A DNA stretch of 32,429 bases, from IMG/VR virus record IMGVR_UViG_3300040801_002166, positions 1 through 32,429 of that record; one strand, 5' to 3'. The position numbers and the translations under genes are program-made. Below the pieces are notes generated by a model, which saw only the letters and a program-made list of their open reading frames with translations, was not told where the DNA came from and ran no database searches. Positions within the stretch are counted from its first letter, which is position 1. Every line of letters starts with the position of its first letter. Source of the DNA: a virus. Below, piece after piece: positions 1,062 through 32,429 of this stretch.

Positions 1062-1483
1062 AGTGCGACCTCTTTTCTTCCCTGAGCCCAGAATTCGCTC
1101 ATATCATCACAGTTCTCAAGCAGGCCATGGTAAAAAACCTCTTCTTTTGTTCTGCTCTGTCCTTTGAGTGCATATGCGACCTTTCCATCACATCTGATGA
1201 TTGCCGGACCATTTGTTCGATGATAGATCCATTTCTTATCTTCAAAGTAGGCCCAGACAAGCTGATCCATATCTTGACGCCATCGATGAGGCAGAAGAGC
1301 ACCATTCAATTTAGATATCTTTGGTGAATCATGTTTTAAGGGAGATGCCCAGATGAATTTATCTTTATTCTGTTCTGTCCATGGAATGCTCATGAAATGG
1401 TTCTCCATTTTAGCGTGAGAGATATGTTTTGCTGTTCTAAGCTTATCGTCGATGTATCCTATCCAGTATTCTTTAGTCTCCAT
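1058..1483 (-). CDS. Hypothetical protein with an HRTNGPA motif
   Basis: The likely start is the ATG at 1483, where a GAGGA ribosome site lies eight bases upstream and the gene overlaps the end of the HAD gene by 11 bases. A longer frame opens at 1546 but lacks this signal. The 141-residue product is aromatic-rich and soluble. Around residues 88-108 it has HRTNGPAIIRCDGKVAYALKG, which resembles the 'H-R-x-x-G-P-A ... dG ... Y ... G' unit found in many phage proteins of unknown function. No catalytic motif is visible. Its place at the end of the sugar cassette may be incidental. Confidence 0.7.
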   Translation of the reverse strand: METKEYWIGYIDDKLRTAKHISHAKMENHFMSIPWTEQNKDKFIWASPLKHDSPKISKLNGALLPHRWRQDMDQLVWAYFEDKKWIYHRTNGPAIIRCDGKVAYALKGQSRTKEEVFYHGLLENCDDMSEFWAQGRKEVAL

Positions 1484-1772
1484 AAAAGAAATCCTCACTG
1501 TTGATGTTCTTATCGTCGATGAAGTAGTCATATGCTGGCTTACCAAACCGAAGCTCGTGATATTTCACTTCCCACTCTCTGAATTGTCTCTCTGTCACCT
1601 CTCTCCAATCTTTTCCTGTTACAGTCCCTCTTGCAGTCCAATACACAATCTCATGACCTTGATCATACAGTTTGTTGACTGTTTTGATTCGTTCTGGGAT
1701 GGGTATGGCTTTGGAATAGTCCATTCCATGTGTGTAACAGATTGTATCGTCTATATCTATGAAATATCTCAT
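1473..1772 (-). CDS. Small HAD-type phosphatase
   Basis: The 99-residue protein is a compact haloacid dehalogenase fold without a cap domain. Motif I is DIDDT (residues 6-10, nucleophile D6 and acid D8), motif II is the T of TARG (46-49), motif III is K78 in FGKPAYDYF, and motif IV is IDDK (85-88). Such mini-HADs occur in capsule, LPS and sugar-nucleotide clusters and in polynucleotide kinase-like proteins. It overlaps neuB by four bases (ATGA), so the two are translated together. A role in removing phosphate from a 9-phosphorylated nonulosonic acid is plausible by context; nucleotide or DNA-end phosphatase activity is the alternative. Confidence 0.85.
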   Translation of the reverse strand: MRYFIDIDDTICYTHGMDYSKAIPIPERIKTVNKLYDQGHEIVYWTARGTVTGKDWREVTERQFREWEVKYHELRFGKPAYDYFIDDKNINSEDFFYGD

Positions 1773-2611
1773 TGTTCTCTCCTCAGTTTTGCTTTCATTT
1801 TTTCTTCTGTTTGGGTCACTCTTCCAAGTCCCAGATCTTGCATGGCATTCTCGATAATGCGGATATCTCGCACAAGCTGCTTCAGACCCTTCGGCTCTAG
1901 CGATGCTGCCTGATCAGTCCCCCACATCGTCCGGTCAAGCGTGAAATGTCTCTCAATCACTGTCGCTCCCATGGCCACAGCGGCAAGACTGACCTGTAGA
2001 CCGGGGGCGTGGTCAGACCAGCCCACAGGTCGATTGTATTCCTCTCTAAGAGCCTTCATCGTTCCAAGCGAGGCTTCGTTAGGGTCAAGAGGATAACTTG
2101 AGACGCAGTGGAGCAGAGTGAAATCTTTATACCCGTAAAATTCCTTCACGGCCGCCGAGATCTCGTCTTTCGTCGACATTCCTGTTGACATGATGATTTT
2201 CTTGCCTGTTTTTCTTATTTGCTTCAATAATTCAAGGTCTGTGATGCTCGCTGATGCAATCTTGTGGAATGCAACATCATATTTCTCGATAAACTCCAGA
2301 GAATCCAGATCCCAGCACGATGCAGACCAGTCAATACCCAGATTTTTGCAGTGCTCGTCGATTGCATCATACTCTCTCTTTCCAAACTCGATTTTGTGTT
2401 TGTATTCAATGTATGTCATCCTGCCCCATGGTGTGTCGCGCATATCTCCCTTCTTATGCTCGGGAACACACACCTCAGGATTCCTCTTCTGGAATTTGAC
2501 CGCATCAGCTCCAGCTAAGTGAGCCTCGGTGATCATCTCCAGTGCTGTTGCAAGTGAACCATTTGCATTTATTCCAATTTCGGCGATGATATATGTTTTA
2601 TTGTTTTTCAT
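1769..2611 (-). CDS. neuB: NeuB-type nonulosonic acid synthase lacking the SAF domain
   Basis: This 280-residue protein is a NeuB-family TIM barrel, the class that condenses phosphoenolpyruvate with a hexosamine-derived aldose to make sialic, legionaminic or pseudaminic acid. Visible family motifs are AEIGINANGS (10-19), DAVKFQKRN (36-44), the metal-binding GWSDH (197-201), GATVIERHFTLDR (215-227) and GTDQAASLEP (231-240). Cellular enzymes are about 340-350 residues and carry a C-terminal antifreeze-like SAF domain that covers the active site of the dimer partner; this one stops about 40 residues after SLEP, so that domain is absent. The next genes in both directions overlap by four bases, a tightly coupled operon. 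The exact substrate cannot be read from the sequence. Confidence 0.93.
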   Translation of the reverse strand: MKNNKTYIIAEIGINANGSLATALEMITEAHLAGADAVKFQKRNPEVCVPEHKKGDMRDTPWGRMTYIEYKHKIEFGKREYDAIDEHCKNLGIDWSASCWDLDSLEFIEKYDVAFHKIASASITDLELLKQIRKTGKKIIMSTGMSTKDEISAAVKEFYGYKDFTLLHCVSSYPLDPNEASLGTMKALREEYNRPVGWSDHAPGLQVSLAAVAMGATVIERHFTLDRTMWGTDQAASLEPKGLKQLVRDIRIIENAMQDLGLGRVTQTEEKMKAKLRREQ

Positions 2612-3261
2612 TGTCCTTCTCCTGTTGTTTTTGCGATGTCTTTTGCTTTGTTAAGGTCATCAATGCTATCAATCTCCAGACTTCTTCGCTCAGACATTAC
2701 AACAAATGCTGTGTTTCCCTCAACAAATCGACTTCCTTTATATTTTTCTCTTTTGAAAACATAGAATCCTCCATTCTCGATGAATATTCCATGCTCTTGT
2801 GTTCTTTTTCTTTCTTGTTTGTCGAAGAATGCCTCTCCATCCCTGTTCCAGACAAAGTAAGGCTTCTCGAACACACTGATGATGTTGTCATATCCCATAC
2901 TCATCAATTTGTTAGCTTTCTCGACCTCTTCTTTTGCAATAAACGGAGTTGTACACTGAGCAAGGCCGACATACTCTGTCTGAATGTTAGAAAGCTTTAG
3001 AACTTCATCAATTACACTCTCAGAGGATGCAATATCTGTGCTAGTCTCCAAAGAGCGCATAATGACATGAACATTTTTGATATTGCTCACTGCATGGGCA
3101 ATCTCGTGACTGTCTGTTGCAACTATGACCTTGTCTCCAGTACAGCTGAAGGTTTGTGCCGCTCTTGTGATTAAAGTTTGGTTGCCGAGAAGCTGGAGGT
3201 TCTTGAATGGTACTCTCTTCGATCCTTTTCGGGCAGGGATTATCCAACATACATTAGACAT
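2608..3261 (-). CDS. neuA: CMP-nonulosonate (acylneuraminate) cytidylyltransferase
   Basis: The 217-residue protein starts with the NeuA nucleotide-binding signature IPARKGSKRVPFKN (8-21), a glycine-, lysine- and arginine-rich loop that holds CTP. Its length fits the single-domain bacterial enzymes. These activate sialic-type acids as CMP-sugars for transfer. It overlaps neuB by four bases and the upstream glycosyltransferase-like gene by 22 bases, so synthesis, activation and possible transfer are encoded contiguously. A KdsB-like CMP-Kdo synthetase would be the main alternative, but the NeuB neighbour argues for a nonulosonic acid. Confidence 0.93.
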   Translation of the reverse strand: MSNVCWIIPARKGSKRVPFKNLQLLGNQTLITRAAQTFSCTGDKVIVATDSHEIAHAVSNIKNVHVIMRSLETSTDIASSESVIDEVLKLSNIQTEYVGLAQCTTPFIAKEEVEKANKLMSMGYDNIISVFEKPYFVWNRDGEAFFDKQERKRTQEHGIFIENGGFYVFKREKYKGSRFVEGNTAFVVMSERRSLEIDSIDDLNKAKDIAKTTGEGQ

Positions 3262-3881
3262 TGAAATATCTCCTTGAACACGGGGTTCTCTCCATAGTAG
3301 TTTATTCTTTTTTCTTTTTGTTTGGCATATTCTGCCAGATGTTCCATATCGGCCACCATTTTGTTCCAGTATTTTCCGAAAACATTGGCAACATAGGCCG
3401 TTCCGCCTTTATCAAAGCCAAAATGACTTGATTGAGTCGGCGTCATGTCGATTCCAAAAACATCAATCTCGTCGAATCCCATCATCAGGCCAAGAGCAAT
3501 CATATGAATGCCAACAGAGGCTCCCTCACTGTATGTCTTTTCGTCAACAATCAGGTATTGTTGAAGTTCTCTGTCTCTCCATGCCCAACAATACTTATCC
3601 TCTCCAAGTTTTTGTTCGAGCATGGCCGCGGTCTGTGTTGGCGCTGCAAAAATGCCGATATCATAATCATTCTTTTTTTCAATTGAAACAATGTTATCTA
3701 CCAGATTTACCATAGCAAAAATATCGAGATCAATCTTGACGCCTGTACGATAGAACTCATTACAGCCCATAATTGTTGCATCATGATACAGATCGGGGTT
3801 AAAATTACCCAATGATGGCCCAAGTGCAAGGATAGCGAGCTTGTCTCCATCGAATCTATTTTTTAAATTTGAAATATTCAT
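3240..3881 (-). CDS. GT42 sialyltransferase / DUF115-like protein
   Basis: The 213-residue protein has the landmarks shared by the Campylobacter Cst-II sialyltransferases (GT42) and the DUF115 flagellin-glycosylation proteins: a Rossmann-type start LAILALGPSLG (15-25), CNEFY (40-44; compare CNQFY in Cst-II, whose Asn binds CMP-sugar), and SEGASVGIHMIALGL followed by GFDEIDVFGIDM (135-146; compare TSGVYMCAVAIALGY...GID). I do not see a clear match for the GT42 catalytic His and Tyr pair, so enzymatic activity is uncertain. Placed directly before neuA and neuB, it would be the natural transferase for the CMP-sugar. Confidence is high for the fold group and moderate for the function. Confidence 0.7.
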   Translation of the reverse strand: MNISNLKNRFDGDKLAILALGPSLGNFNPDLYHDATIMGCNEFYRTGVKIDLDIFAMVNLVDNIVSIEKKNDYDIGIFAAPTQTAAMLEQKLGEDKYCWAWRDRELQQYLIVDEKTYSEGASVGIHMIALGLMMGFDEIDVFGIDMTPTQSSHFGFDKGGTAYVANVFGKYWNKMVADMEHLAEYAKQKEKRINYYGENPVFKEIFQCLMYVG

Positions 3882-5323: not shown

Positions 5324-5947
5324 TTAGCTGGCGAGGGCTTGGTAATCATCGCCGAATAAATCCCATGCCTCGTCCTCGGTGTAGACTGAGTATTCCTTGT
5401 CAATGATTTCCTGAGCGGACATACCATTATCAAGATCCTCGTCGATTTGATCGGTCAACCATACCCAGTTTCTCTTTGTTTTAATCAATGAGATTGATTG
5501 GTGACACACACCGAAGATTTCAGCGAGCGTGAGCTGTTTTGTTTTGTTATCAAGATAAATTCTTTTAACATCAGATGCTTTGAGCTTTGATCGCCCATGA
5601 GACTCACCCCGATTTGATGTTCCATGGACAATTCGGTGCATTTGATTGTCGGAGTGTGATGCCCACATCAGGTTCTCGACCGAGTTGTCGTTCAAATCTC
5701 CATTTTTATGAGCGACAATCGGGAGGTTATCGGGATTTGGTAGGTATGCCTCGGCCACCAATCTAGAAATATAAAAACCGCTCGACTTCCCATTTTTGGA
5801 AAGCTGAACGGTATGTCGACCATCGTGTCTGATAGCGGTTTTTAATTTGATTGGCTTGTTTCTTTTTGTACTGTAGACATTTCCTTTGATGTCGATGAAA
5901 TAGTGATTGTAACCTTTAATCTTGGTAATTGCTTCAATGTTGTTCAT
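5324..5947 (-). CDS. NUMOD4/HNH homing endonuclease with C-terminal extension
   Basis: The preferred start is the ATG at 5947 behind GAGGA; an ATG 15 bases upstream overlaps that site. The 207-residue protein has an N-terminal NUMOD4-like beta module (YFIDIKGNVYST), an HNH_3 nuclease core (AHKNGDLNDNSVENLMWAS; metal-binding His and Asn ligands), and a helix-turn-helix (KASDVKRIYL...LAEIFGVCHQSISLI) that should bind the target. A tail of about 45 acidic residues (DEDLDNGMSAQEIID...) goes beyond the usual family end. It is free-standing, not inside a visible intron. Such genes move by cutting uninserted alleles. Confidence 0.92.
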   Translation of the reverse strand: MNNIEAITKIKGYNHYFIDIKGNVYSTKRNKPIKLKTAIRHDGRHTVQLSKNGKSSGFYISRLVAEAYLPNPDNLPIVAHKNGDLNDNSVENLMWASHSDNQMHRIVHGTSNRGESHGRSKLKASDVKRIYLDNKTKQLTLAEIFGVCHQSISLIKTKRNWVWLTDQIDEDLDNGMSAQEIIDKEYSVYTEDEAWDLFGDDYQALAS

Positions 5948-6038
5948 TTTTTTAATCCTCATAGTTTTGTTATTTTCGAAGGCTCTCCTGTGGCCTACAA
6001 TATAACTATTAACCAGAGAATTAAAAAGGACATTAATC

Positions 6039-6765: not shown

Positions 6766-7281
6766 TTAGATTTTGATGTGAGACCAAGTATAACCTGTGT
6801 TGATGCATGTGATAGTCTCTCGCGATACGCCGAACTTTTCGGCGATTTTTCGCTGAGTTTGGCCGGAATCTCTTAACAGAAGTTTTATTTCTCGGACCTG
6901 ATTCGCGGTCAGTTTTGAACTGGGATGCTTCTCGCCGGGACCCAGTGTTCCATGCTTCACTGCATCAGCATAATTCATTTTTCTCGTTCCGTAGCGAAGA
7001 TTTTCGACATGATTATTAGCAGGATCGCCATCTCCATGGAGCACACAGCGATAACCATTTGGGTTTTCGAGAAATGCCTCGGCGACAAGTCGATGAATTC
7101 GAAATGTTTTATGTTTTCCATTTTTCCATAGATCAGCGAGCTGGTAACCTTCTTTTTGAGTTGTGGGTTTGAGCCATCTTCCTGATCCCTTCGTAGACCA
7201 GACTCGGCCATGGCTCGTGATCCAATAGTCCGGGTAATCTGCGATTTGTGTTGCCTGTTCGTATTTCTTTAGATTTTTCAT
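6766..7281 (-). CDS. NUMOD4/HNH homing endonuclease
   Basis: The start is the ATG at 7281 with AAGGA seven bases upstream; its first residues MKNLKKYE match the start of the plus-strand relative at 23025. The 171-residue protein has a NUMOD4 region (DYPDYWITSHGRVWS), the HNH_3 core (CVLHGDGDPANNHVENLRYG) and a C-terminal helix-turn-helix (TQRKIAEKFGVSRETITCI). It is closely related over its full length to the enzyme encoded at 23025-23546. It begins 25 bases after the first HTH gene of the RNA module, so it may be transcribed from the RNA-1 promoter. Confidence 0.93.
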   Translation of the reverse strand: MKNLKKYEQATQIADYPDYWITSHGRVWSTKGSGRWLKPTTQKEGYQLADLWKNGKHKTFRIHRLVAEAFLENPNGYRCVLHGDGDPANNHVENLRYGTRKMNYADAVKHGTLGPGEKHPSSKLTANQVREIKLLLRDSGQTQRKIAEKFGVSRETITCINTGYTWSHIKI

Positions 7282-7306: not shown

Positions 7307-7894
7307 TCAGATATCGAGAGTGTATCCGACTTTTCGATATGCTTTTTGAATAGCAGATTTTTTTCTGTAAAATGAATCTTTCGAAATTCCAACTTCATAA
7401 CAGGCATCCAAAACATTCACTCCACTGAATATCAACATTGAAACTTGAAAGAATTCAGGATGTATTCTCTTGATTTCTCCTAAAATAGTTTTCGCGAGAT
7501 CTCTTTCGATGATGCTTTGTTCAACATTCTTCTTGTCCATGATTGTTTTCTCCTCAAATTTGATATGTCTAAATTTTCTCTGTTTTGAATCTAAATAATT
7601 CAGTAAGTCACATCGTACAATTCTCCATATTTTTTTGACTGAAATGTATTTCTCATTTTTCAAATTATCTACCAAACTCATGTACGAGATTGTACCAATT
7701 TTCTCTTTTTCCCAATCAGATAAAAGACCAAGAGAAAAATTTATTCTGGGGAATTGGGTTTGGTTAAAGATTATTTCTATGGCGAGATCTAGATCATATA
7801 AAGAGATCCATGTATTATCTGAATATAATTTTTCTTTAACGCGCTCAATCTTCTCCAGTTTTTTTCTTTCAATTTCTTCTGTTATGTATTTCAT
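7307..7894 (-). CDS. RNA-module HTH protein 1
   Basis: The 195-residue product is set from the ATG at 7894, 25 bases past the 3' hairpin of RNA-1. The N-terminal two thirds is helical and of unknown family. The last 45 residues hold a helix-turn-helix (VLDACYEVGISKDSFYRKK), like the DNA-recognition ends of sigma-like or resolvase-like regulators. It is a paralogue of the protein at 8740-9252: compare IWRIVRCDLLNYLDSKQ with VWREVHCDFQNYLNKKE, RHIKFEE with HHIQFEE, and FYRKK in both. The gene is strikingly A+T-rich compared with the structural genes. Likely a DNA- or RNA-binding regulator tied to the RNA upstream; the actual role is unknown. Confidence 0.8.
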   Translation of the reverse strand: MKYITEEIERKKLEKIERVKEKLYSDNTWISLYDLDLAIEIIFNQTQFPRINFSLGLLSDWEKEKIGTISYMSLVDNLKNEKYISVKKIWRIVRCDLLNYLDSKQRKFRHIKFEEKTIMDKKNVEQSIIERDLAKTILGEIKRIHPEFFQVSMLIFSGVNVLDACYEVGISKDSFYRKKSAIQKAYRKVGYTLDI

Positions 7895-7918
7895 TTTCTC
7901 TGTTCCAGAAAGCAATAA

Positions 7919-7959
7919 ACCCTAGATGATCAGTGGGAACAGCACCGACCAAATAGGGT
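7919..7959 (-). terminator. 3' two-tier hairpin of RNA-1
   Basis: An outer ACCCTA/TAGGGT helix encloses an inner GGTC/GATC helix (one G-U pair on the transcript) and a 15-base loop (7932-7946). The downstream stretch is only modestly T-rich (TTTATTGC), so termination would be leaky, letting transcription reach the HTH gene 25 bases on. The same architecture with different bases occurs at 9272-9322. Confidence 0.6.
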
Positions 7960-8410
7960 CATTGAACTTTATAAATTTTTTCTTCAGACGAGGCCCTGTT
8001 CCGACTTCATCTATTTTATATAGGTTGTGGTATTAACCAAAAGAACATTTATCTTGAGAATAACTTGAAAAAAGAGAAGCAGAGTGGAACACTTGATTTA
8101 TCAAAGAATCATTTTGGGTCATCGTGTACCAGCCAGCTCGTGTTTTTCTCTGTATCGCTCTTGGCCTCTTGTTGGGCCATCATGTATCGATCTCTCTCTT
8201 TTCTTCTCTTGTTCCCTCTCGACTGTCTTCTCGTCCATCATCTGGATCAGCCTCTGTTTGATATCTCGACCATGTCTCGTCTATGTCTCGTCTATACCTT
8301 CCGAAAACTTCGTGATTTTTCGCAAAAAACTTTATTTTTTTTTCAGGATCTCGAGATTCCGTAACAAACTCAATGACTTACAGACCAAGAAAAATTGTAT
8401 TCTTTGCGAT

Positions 8411-8521
8411 TTTCTGTTCGACCCTCTAGCCGAGATCTCGAAATATTAATAAAATGGGAAGACAAGACATATGGAACTTCATTGGTTTCGTCGAGATCTC
8501 GGCTAGAGGGTCGAACAGAAA
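8411..8521 (-). repeat. 31-bp perfect inverted repeat, 49-base loop (RNA-1)
   Basis: Positions 8411-8441 and 8491-8521 are perfect reverse complements, 31 bp, separated by exactly 49 bases. The end of the arm next to the loop is TCGAGATCTC, where RNA-2 has TCGAGACCTC with the matching change on the other strand. The rest of the arm has no likeness to RNA-2. As RNA it forms a very stable rod; as DNA it could extrude as a cruciform. Confidence 0.9.
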
Positions 8522-8576
8522 TCACACAGGAGGAACCAACAAAACGAGGTAATAGATCCCTGCTCGACCCAAGAAC

Positions 8577-8605
8577 ATTATAGCATTAACCGTTCAAAAT
8601 GTCAA
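8577..8605 (-). promoter_or_regulatory. Perfect consensus sigma70 promoter for RNA-1
   Basis: The minus strand reads TTGACA (8605-8600), a 17-base spacer, then TATAAT (8582-8577): both hexamers and the spacing are exactly consensus. Transcription would start near 8570. It lies just past the stop of the protease C-terminal scrap (8611) and points into RNA-1, HTH-1 and the HNH gene. I saw no other exact consensus promoter in the window. Confidence 0.88.
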
Positions 8606-8610
8606 GCATT

Positions 8611-8727
8611 CTACTTCAATTGACGATAGCTTTTTGTGATTTCTTTGATGTCATCGAGCTGTGCTCCATAGGCGATGAATGGTACCTGAGTGCTCATCGA
8701 GTGAATGACCCCGACAACTTCATTATT
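8611..8727 (-). pseudogene. C-terminal fragment of a trypsin-like protease
   Basis: After two stop codons that end HTH-2, an in-frame stretch of 38 codons reads NNEVVGVIHSMSTQVPFIAY then GAQLDDIKEI..., ending in TAG at 8611. This matches the last beta strands and final helix of trypsin-like serine proteases, where '(N/G)-x-EVVGV-x-H-S...GFA...D-D-I-K' follows the GxSGG active-site loop. The serine loop itself and the catalytic Asp are not found. There is no start codon before the frame. It is best explained as the 3' end of the gene whose 5' end is at 9835-10152. Confidence 0.65.
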
Positions 8728-8739
8728 TTAGATTCTTCA

Positions 8740-9252
8740 TCATTCTACCTCCATCTCATTCTTTTTTCTGTAAAAAGTTCTGGGGGATATGTTGTTCTTT
8801 TTGCATGCCTCATCAATCGTGATATCTTCATTATAAACTGAAAGCAATACTTTAAAAACAACAGGATTTAATCTCTCACAATGTTTGAAAGCAGATTTGA
8901 TTATTTGAATATCTTCTTGATTCTTTTGTAGGCTCGGCATTCTGTTCTCCTCGAATTGAATGTGGTGATATTTATTTTCTTTTTTGTTTAGATAATTCTG
9001 GAAATCGCAATGAACTTCTCTCCAGACAAAAGAGATAGGAATCAAAGGATAATCTTCCAGTAAATTCAAAAGAGAAAAATACGACTTTGTTTCAATTTCT
9101 TCCATTGCTCTATCAGATAATCTCTCATTGCAAAAAACAAGATTGTTTCTCTTAACTAAATAAGAAATAACAATATCCAGATTTCTAATATTCACATGAG
9201 ATTTTTTACCATAAACTATTTTTTTAATTTCTGTTTGAGTTAAATTAAACAC
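8740..9252 (-). CDS. RNA-module HTH protein 2
   Basis: The preferred start is the GTG at 9252, with GAGGA eight bases upstream and 20 bases past the 3' hairpin of RNA-2; a longer frame from a TTG at 9327 would run through that hairpin. The product is about 170 residues, a paralogue of HTH protein 1, with the shared WRxVxCDxxNYL and HIxFEE blocks and a C-terminal helix-turn-helix (ITIDEACKKNNISPRTFYRK). It is A+T-rich like its relative. It ends directly before the protease scrap, which marks the likely edge of the inserted module. Its partner RNA, DNA site and function are unknown. Confidence 0.78.
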   Translation of the reverse strand: MFNLTQTEIKKIVYGKKSHVNIRNLDIVISYLVKRNNLVFCNERLSDRAMEEIETKSYFSLLNLLEDYPLIPISFVWREVHCDFQNYLNKKENKYHHIQFEENRMPSLQKNQEDIQIIKSAFKHCERLNPVVFKVLLSVYNEDITIDEACKKNNISPRTFYRKKNEMEVE

Positions 9253-9271
9253 TTGCTTGTCCTCAAATGAA

Positions 9272-9322
9272 AAACCCTTCGAATATAGCTTAGTGGACAA
9301 GACGGCTACACCCGAAGGGTTT
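9272..9322 (-). terminator. 3' two-tier terminator-like hairpin of RNA-2
   Basis: An outer 10-bp helix (AAACCCTTCG/CGAAGGGTTT) encloses TAGC/GCTA and a 15-base loop (9290-9304). On the minus strand the helix runs into a T5 tract, a good intrinsic terminator. Both helices are replaced by different pairs in RNA-1 while the loop keeps the same length. On the plus strand the loop region resembles a tRNA D-arm (TAGCTTAGTGGACAAG), but no other tRNA part is present. Confidence 0.65.
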
Positions 9323-9761
9323 AACAAATTTTAAAATTCTTTAGATCGAAGCCTTGTCCTGCTCGCTCTAGTATAGATAGTCTGTGGTATTAACCAAAAG
9401 AACATTTATCTTGAGAAAAACTTGAAAAAAGAGAATAGAGTTGGAACATTTGATTTATCAAAGAATCATTTCGGACCATTTATGTATCAGCCTTTCATGT
9501 TTTTCTCTTGTACCGCTCTGGCCTCTTGTCGGGCCATGATGTATCAATCTCTCTTTTTCTTCTCTTGTTCTTTCTCGACTGTTGTTTTGCTCCAACCTCT
9601 CATCCAACCCTCAACCAGTATCCTCTATACTTTACCTCCGAAAACTCAGCACTTTCTGCCAAAAAACTTTATTTTTTTTTCAGGAACTCGAGATTCCGTA
9701 ACAAACTCAATGACTTACAGACCAAGAAAAATTGTATACTCTGCGAGACTCTACTCTGTGA

Positions 9762-9842
9762 TTGACTGAGGTCTCGAAAGTTAGTAAAAAGTGTTTTGTG
9801 TATATTGCAATAGAACTTTAAATTAGTCGAGACCTCAGTCAA
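9762..9842 (-). repeat. 16-bp inverted repeat, 49-base loop (RNA-2)
   Basis: Positions 9762-9777 and 9827-9842 are perfect reverse complements separated by 49 bases, the same loop length as in RNA-1. The arm overlaps the last codons and TGA stop of the protease 5' part (9835), so the module boundary and the truncation coincide. Confidence 0.88.
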
Positions 9843-10152
9843 AGGCTGAAGAACTCCCAGCAAGATCCAATATTCTTTGGTTGGCTCGCTCACCATGTTT
9901 GTTATAGCAAACATGATAATTTGTGAGAATATAATTGTTTTTGAATTGATCTCGATGAAAAACAAAACCCGAGCCAGAGCCGATTACTCGACCGCTCGGG
10001 AGATATTTCTGGAATTCAACATAGGATTGAATCGGATATTTGTAATTATAGACTTGACCGACATCCTCCATTTTAATCTTTGTGGGCGAGCTTGAATGTC
10101 TCACGCTGATCAGTATAAAGAAAACAAGGAGAATGGTCGTCATATGCTTCAT
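9835..10152 (-). pseudogene. Truncated trypsin-like serine protease, N-terminal part
   Basis: The frame codes 105 residues: a signal peptide or membrane anchor (MKHMTTILLVFFILISV), a linker, then GSGSGFVFHRD and YILTNYHVC, the oxyanion-side strand and catalytic-His motif of trypsin/HtrA-like proteases. It stops about 25 residues after the His, inside the 5' helix of RNA-2. A whole domain needs about 100 more residues with Asp and GxSGG. A matching C-terminal piece lies 1.1 kb on (8611-8727) but the middle is missing, so active protease is not expected unless the short product has another role. An exported protease in a fibre/lysis neighbourhood may once have acted in host-envelope processing. 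Confidence 0.72.
9901..9929 (-). promoter_or_regulatory. Weak candidate promoter upstream of RNA-2
   Basis: The minus strand has TTCTCA (9929-9924), 17 bases, then TATAAC (9906-9901): four and five matches of six to consensus. The -10 element is the loop of a perfect CATGTTTG/CAAACATG hairpin (9894-9915). Correct position for RNA-2, but weak evidence. Confidence 0.25.
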
Positions 10153-23024: not shown

Positions 23025-23546
23025 ATGAAAAATTTAAAAGATGGCGAAGAACTGAAGCGGATTGATGGATACCCAGATTATTATATCTCGAATTATGGAC
23101 GAGTTTGGAGTGATAAATCTTGTCGAGGAACTAAAGGACGTTGGTTGAAGGCTCGAACAAACCGAGGTGGCTATTATCAAATAAACTTGTTAAAAAACGG
23201 CAAAAGAAAAACTGAAAGAATTCATAAACTTGTTGCTCAACATTTTCTCAAAAACCCGAATGGCTATCCTTGTGTTTTACACAATGACGGCGATCCTTAT
23301 AACAATCATGTCGAGAATCTTCGATTTGGGTCGGCCAAAATGAATCACGATGATGCCGTTCGTCATGGAACAAGGGGTTTCGGAGAAAAATCACCCAATC
23401 CCAAACTCACCGCCGATGCTGTTCGAGAGATCAAAATCCTATTGTGCGACTCTGATTTAACTCAGCGAGAGATCGGCGAGAAGTTCGGTGTATCGAAAGG
23501 TACAATCTCTAAAATCAAAAATAGAAAATTATGGAAGCATATCTAA
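23025..23546 (+). CDS. NUMOD4/HNH homing endonuclease, opposite strand
   Basis: The only clear plus-strand gene. The 173-residue enzyme has a NUMOD4 module (DYYISNYGRVWSDK), the HNH_3 core (CVLHNDGDPYNNHVENLRFG) and a C-terminal helix-turn-helix (TQREIGEKFGVSKGTISKIK). It is closely related to the minus-strand enzyme at 6766-7281, including the start MKNLK. It carries its own promoter-like sequence, a structured leader and a terminator at 23573-23607, so it is a self-contained insertion between tail tube and chaperone genes. Confidence 0.94.
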   Translation: MKNLKDGEELKRIDGYPDYYISNYGRVWSDKSCRGTKGRWLKARTNRGGYYQINLLKNGKRKTERIHKLVAQHFLKNPNGYPCVLHNDGDPYNNHVENLRFGSAKMNHDDAVRHGTRGFGEKSPNPKLTADAVREIKILLCDSDLTQREIGEKFGVSKGTISKIKNRKLWKHI

Positions 23547-32312: not shown

Positions 32313-32429
32313 AGAATAGTACAGATCTGTACCGGGAGGTGGGCGATATGTTTCATTGTGTTGCATTATGTTGCAACATTGTTTCATAATGGATCAATGT
32401 GGGGTATTTTCGTGCAGGTGTCGGGAGCA
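32313..32429. repeat. Terminal direct repeat, right copy
   Basis: Exact copy of 1-117. See the left copy for interpretation; the two should be counted once in the circular genome. Confidence 0.95.

Follow-up and report, generated by a model that had tools for sequence, protein, structure and literature searches.

A duplicated long RNA that may act as a switchable leader of two putative sigma factors in a tailed phage

The window analysed here, a 32,429-base virus record taken at its full length, carries on its minus strand a duplicated RNA-protein module that is real and unusual. Our main reading, to which we give a probability of about one half, is that a long structured leader RNA, of an apparently new family, has been duplicated and gates two phage sigma factors. 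Each RNA, about 600 nt long, would end in a paired switch able to turn the sigma-like gene behind it on or off.

Results

Two tandem units and their common RNA

As drawn in this analysis, unit 1 occupies about 7307-8605 and unit 2 about 8740-9842, and both show the same sequence elements in the same order: 5' helix, conserved core, 3' hairpins and a protein gene. This arrangement had been noticed in the preliminary description, and it is seen on the minus strand, which alike holds the promoter, the U tract, the ribosome site and the gene. The two core blocks are identical at 52/53 positions (8026-8078 vs 9383-9435) and 76/77 positions (8324-8400 vs 9661-9737), exactly the values given before, and the repeat families D1 (143 nt, 79%) and D2 (110 nt, 90%) confirm a duplication. 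Over the whole RNA 69% of the aligned bases are identical; the two protein genes reach 51%, their third codon positions are saturated (42% identical) and their products are only 29% identical, so that the far higher conservation of the RNA blocks claimed earlier stands. Diverged stretches are interspersed with the identical blocks throughout the RNA alignment. Folding the two aligned copies to a consensus gives z -5.4 on the minus and -5.2 on the plus strand relative to column-permuted controls, values that are dominated by the 5' helix. Judged from the sequence, selection on the RNA explains its conservation better than recent copying does; parts of the core may nevertheless have been converted between the units, with n=2 copies in one genome. 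The covariation discussed below rests on these two copies, because no homologue of the RNA or the protein was found.

Unit 1 is preceded by a promoter (8577..8605, minus strand) with TTGACA, a 17-bp spacer and TATAAT, the second hexamer being preceded by TG. It matches the sigma-70 consensus at 12/12 positions and is the sole such site in the genome, where about 0.03 would be expected by chance; transcription is expected to start near 8570. No clear promoter was found for unit 2. The 5' helix P1 of unit 1 (8411..8521, minus strand) consists of 31 perfect pairs between 8491-8521 and 8411-8441 around a 49-nt loop, and its counterpart in unit 2 (9760..9842, minus strand) has about 16 pairs, near 9842-9827/9777-9762, in agreement with the long 5' helix reported before. 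P1 covaries between the units: 4/15 aligned pairs are altered on both sides, and all still pair. The conserved core follows at 8026..8410 in unit 1 and 9383..9750 in unit 2 (both minus strand). Taken alone (roughly 370 nt), it is no stabler than shuffled sequences (z +1.2 and +1.3), and with no unusual folding energy it may therefore serve as a protein-binding site, rely on pseudoknots or function as DNA. Each RNA contains two copies of the motif GRUACAYNAUGRYCC with a spacing of about 57 nt, at 8205-8110 and 9560-9475 (repeat D7 in unit 2). Two plus-strand ORFs cross the RNAs (8065-8364 and 9422-9769); coding was ruled out for them because they start alike and the frame is then lost between the units.

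The 3' domain

The 3' end of each RNA holds two hairpins, here called X and T, and three short segments, A, B and C. In unit 1, hairpin X (7985..8013) exposes segment A, GGAACAG (8002-7996), in its loop; the terminator-like hairpin T (7918..7960) exposes segment B, CUGUUCC (7942-7936), and is followed by UUUAUUGCUUU, a weak U tract; and segment C, again GGAACAG (7900..7906), overlaps the presumed ribosome-binding site of sigma-like gene 1. In unit 2, hairpin X (9342..9370) carries segment A, GGACAAG (9359-9353), hairpin T (9273..9321) has up to 18 pairs with segment B, CUUGUCC (9301-9295), in its loop and UUUUUC behind it, and segment C, GGACAAG (9256..9262), lies inside GAGGACAAGCAAGTG and overlaps the ribosome-binding site of sigma-like gene 2. 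All these elements are on the minus strand. Segments A and C are thus the identical 7-mer within each unit and B is complementary to both; between the units the 7-mer differs at two positions, and A, B and C all follow the change.

A triple of this kind beside the start codon arises in 18/5000 and 26/5000 shuffles (0.4-0.5%, each unit taken alone), and since it is rare in shuffles and present in both units in the same loops, chance is unlikely. The 3' hairpins, which the preliminary description had also noted, are present in both units and stabler than dinucleotide shuffles (z -3.3 and -2.8). Between the units, both partners differ in 6/9 pairs of the inner stem of T, in two pairs of X and in two of A-B. 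The mutually exclusive pairings (A-B, B-C and T) are kept in both units, whereas their energies are balanced in unit 1 only, where two nested folds lie near equal energy (-37.9 vs -37.0). In unit 2 the A-B fold (-30.1) is 7.7 kcal/mol worse than X+T (-37.8), and the switch there is therefore unbalanced by energy alone. Pairing of B with C while T stays intact is a pseudoknot, which is beyond the scoring of the folding program.

The sigma-like proteins

The genes behind the RNAs encode sigma-like protein 1 (7307..7894, minus strand; 195 aa from ATG 7894) and sigma-like protein 2 (8740..9252, minus strand; 170 aa from GTG 9252), these likely starts replacing the TTG of the mechanical ORFs. Sequence libraries returned weak helix-turn-helix and sigma matches, including a weak PHROG sigma match. 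The predicted structures have pLDDT 67 and 68 for proteins 1 and 2, and their top Foldseek matches in the PDB and among viral structures are mostly sigma factors, the PDB matches including gp79-type, ECF and gp55 sigmas. In the VIA comparison most rows for model 1 are sigma factors, with sigma2 over residues about 37-120 and sigma4 over 139-198; for model 2 the sigma rows are fewer, with non-sigma helical folds among them and a non-sigma fold as the top row. All VIA sigma rows have Z below 8, and the sigma2 alignments, at Z 5-7, come from models of moderate confidence. Using hhalign against a reference profile of E. coli RpoE and six phage sigma-like proteins (4/6 annotated as sigma factors), the region 4 helix-turn-helix matched at E 5.8e-4, compared with 0.14-0.82 in nine column-shuffled or reversed controls, at a probability of 29%. 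By eye, YRIAVNTAKNYLVAQGRR of RpoE (region 2.3-2.4) resembles WRIVRCDLLNYLDSKQRK. The fold matches to sigma2 and sigma4 and the region-4 profile match make it quite probable that the two proteins are divergent ECF-like sigma factors. The helix-turn-helix proteins of the preliminary description are accordingly probably sigma factors and not generic helix-turn-helix partners.

Genome and gene context

An exact direct repeat of 117 bp is found at both ends of the record (1-117 and 32313-32429), and we therefore regard it as probably the complete genome of a tailed phage, about 32.3 kb long. Nearly all genes are encoded on the minus strand. Genes for packaging, head and tail and a spanin-like gene were recognised; no replication gene appeared among the PHROGs matches, many proteins being without any match, and no regulator gene besides the two units was recognised in the apparently complete record, as the preliminary description had also found. 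The genome has no tRNA genes. A gene-poor stretch of about 900 bp surrounds both record ends. By reading, positions 1473-3881 hold a block of sugar-related genes, with sialic acid synthase-like and CMP-sugar synthetase-like members and a phosphoheptose-isomerase-like PHROG (1473-1772), in what is a small phage.

Three NUMOD4/HNH endonuclease genes were assigned by family match: one at 5324-5962, a homing-type one directly after unit 1 (6766-7281, minus strand), and one at 23025-23546, the sole clear plus-strand gene of the genome. The latter two both begin with MKNLK, and sigma-like gene 2 is followed by ATGATGAAGAATCTAAAATAA (8722..8742, minus strand), which reads MMKNLK* and is possibly the remnant of an HNH gene start. 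Unit 2 is flanked by pieces of a trypsin-like protease gene: the N-terminal piece (9835..10152, minus strand), assigned from a weak Trypsin_2 match and the reading frame, breaks off at unit 2, and the presumed C-terminal piece (8611..8719, minus strand) comes after the unit. The latter was assigned by reading the sequence and is presumptive, because the fragment alone has no family match; the middle of the protease (about 70 aa) is absent between the two. The simplest story would be that an RNA-sigma-HNH module entered the protease gene, with a later loss of both its HNH gene and a portion of the protease.

Searches for relatives

Rfam gave no match to either RNA even at a permissive threshold of up to E 5, including the group I and group II introns, the other known ribozymes and the ROOL and GOLLD covariance models; low-scoring microRNA rows reflected the long hairpin only and were discarded. 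The suggestion of no known RNA family is thereby upheld, and membership of ROOL or GOLLD, with which the RNAs had been compared, is not. Excision of the RNAs as introns would restore no reading frame, as the protease pieces lack their middle and unit 1 interrupts no recognised gene. No homologue was found of sigma-like protein 1, nor by using an alignment of both proteins, and blastn of the RNA in phages and plasmids gave nothing convincing. Exact core patterns had only short matches in viral and genome collections; by nhmmer and by reading these are chance, the best (L052) lying inside a coding gene. Among 28 loci at about 31% found through the terminase, none carries the RNA or the protein, and a search by neighbour gene found no relatives either. 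Thermus and Meiothermus phages with distant terminases possess primase and helicase genes and were set aside as not close relatives. Altogether, no relative of the RNA or the protein was found in the viral, genome, phage and plasmid collections searched, and no matching system came up in the literature on HNH/RNA modules or on sigma factors linked to structured RNA.

Discussion

Proposed mechanism

We propose that in the OFF state hairpins X and T form, T halting part of the transcription while its loop, B, pairs with C and blocks the ribosome. In the ON state, A and the 5' arm of X would form one long helix with B and the 3' arm of T; alternatively, A would kiss B in a loop-loop contact. Either way T, the B-C block or both would be lost and the sigma gene would be read. 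The core would sense a common signal or bind a common partner, because near-identical cores serve two quite different proteins. Host polymerase would read unit 1 on entry from its consensus promoter, after which phage transcription would come under the sigma factors; the module may owe its spread to the HNH gene that adjoins unit 1. The preliminary description had offered a control element of the phage, which is plausible given the sole 12/12 promoter before unit 1 and the lack of another recognised regulator; its 3' part looks like a regulatory switch on the protein gene. Another suggestion of that description, a defence or counter-defence RNA, finds no supporting evidence, no defence families having been found in the genome.

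Several known systems share part of this layout. Riboswitches and attenuator leaders, usually 100-250 nt long, use anti-terminator and anti-Shine-Dalgarno elements. As in these, three segments pair alternatively, of which one sits in a terminator-like hairpin and another covers the ribosome site, and the upstream part is conserved while the switch part varies; unlike them, the RNAs here are about 600 nt long and without an Rfam match, segments A and B form hairpin loops, and the gene controlled would be a phage sigma-like gene. The leader RNAs of rpoH and rpoS place the ribosome site of a sigma gene within RNA structure, as here, but the present units are much longer, duplicated and phage-borne, with one core for two different sigma genes. 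ROOL and GOLLD RNAs are often found near tRNA genes and form homo-oligomeric RNA cages. They resemble our RNAs in being phage-borne, near 600 nt, capable of kissing loops (a possibility here) and without an assigned function; our RNAs differ in being joined to a sigma-like gene, with no Rfam match, no tRNA nearby and a core that is not unusually stable. The proteins share their predicted sigma2 and sigma4 layout, and the region-4 profile match, with ECF sigmas such as E. coli RpoE and with gp55- and gp79-type phage sigmas, and depart from known sigmas in falling below the Pfam cut-offs, in having no close relative found and in occurring as two 29%-identical copies in one phage. In the RNA-guided transcription complex of PDB 9n9q a sigma factor likewise adjoins a long RNA, although no guide-effector gene is recognised here and 9n9q is a weak fold match of the sigma-like chain.

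Alternative explanations

The RNA of about 600 nt might instead act alone, in trans or as a scaffold, with T as its end and the sigma gene as a read-through passenger or partner. The A-B contact would then be an intermolecular kissing loop through which each RNA assembles with its own kind only, as suggested by 7-nt loops that are exactly complementary and differ between the two RNAs; kissing loops mediate ROOL and GOLLD assembly (PMC12286853). We consider this unlikely. Its size, phage setting, consensus promoter and terminator-like 3' end would suit such an RNA, but the reading does not explain why both units have segment C over the ribosome site, a sigma gene is tightly joined to each RNA, and the ordinary stability of the core, the empty Rfam search and the lack of nearby tRNA genes tell against it.

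Somewhat more doubtful is a homing or selfish module in which RNA, sigma and HNH genes move together, unit 2 having entered the protease and later lost its HNH gene. The HNH gene immediately after unit 1, the MMKNLK* remnant behind sigma-like gene 2, which matches HNH gene starts, and the protease pieces flanking unit 2 all speak for such movement. Yet the remnant spans only about 15 bases, the HNH genes at 5324-5962 and 23025-23546 sit without the RNA, and neither introns of group I or II nor any other known ribozyme gave a match; nor would splicing restore the protease, because its middle is missing.

It is improbable, in our view, that the core acts as DNA, whether as a binding or packaging site or as a replication origin primed by the consensus-promoter RNA in the manner of ColE1, where an RNA primes the replication origin. 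No replication gene was recognised, a strong promoter lies upstream, and the core is conserved in sequence without unusual folding energy and has an A-tract in one block; the covarying helices around it point to RNA, however, a spacing of 1.3 kb between two origins would be strange, and the record ends offer a separate gene-poor stretch (roughly 900 bp). There is a similarly slim chance that the core RNA acts in phage transcription by binding RNA polymerase, or else the sigma holoenzyme, and steers promoter choice together with either of the interchangeable sigma factors encoded on the same transcript; if true, such an RNA-sigma module would differ from both 6S RNA and the CRISPR-derived systems. 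That the cores are alike merely as a functionless by-product of recent duplication or gene conversion is very improbable, for although direct repeats 1.34-1.36 kb apart are able to convert each other, the identical blocks alternate with diverged stretches that still pair, and saturation has been reached in the adjoining genes (42% identity at third positions).

Implications

If the leader-RNA reading is right, this phage carries very long leader RNAs of a family not described before, which control phage sigma factors. Its two copies in one genome would constitute a natural test, with the same core, a different output gene and a re-paired switch. The reading would also give direct, testable predictions of how host transcription is seized by a small phage in which neither replication nor repressor genes were recognised.
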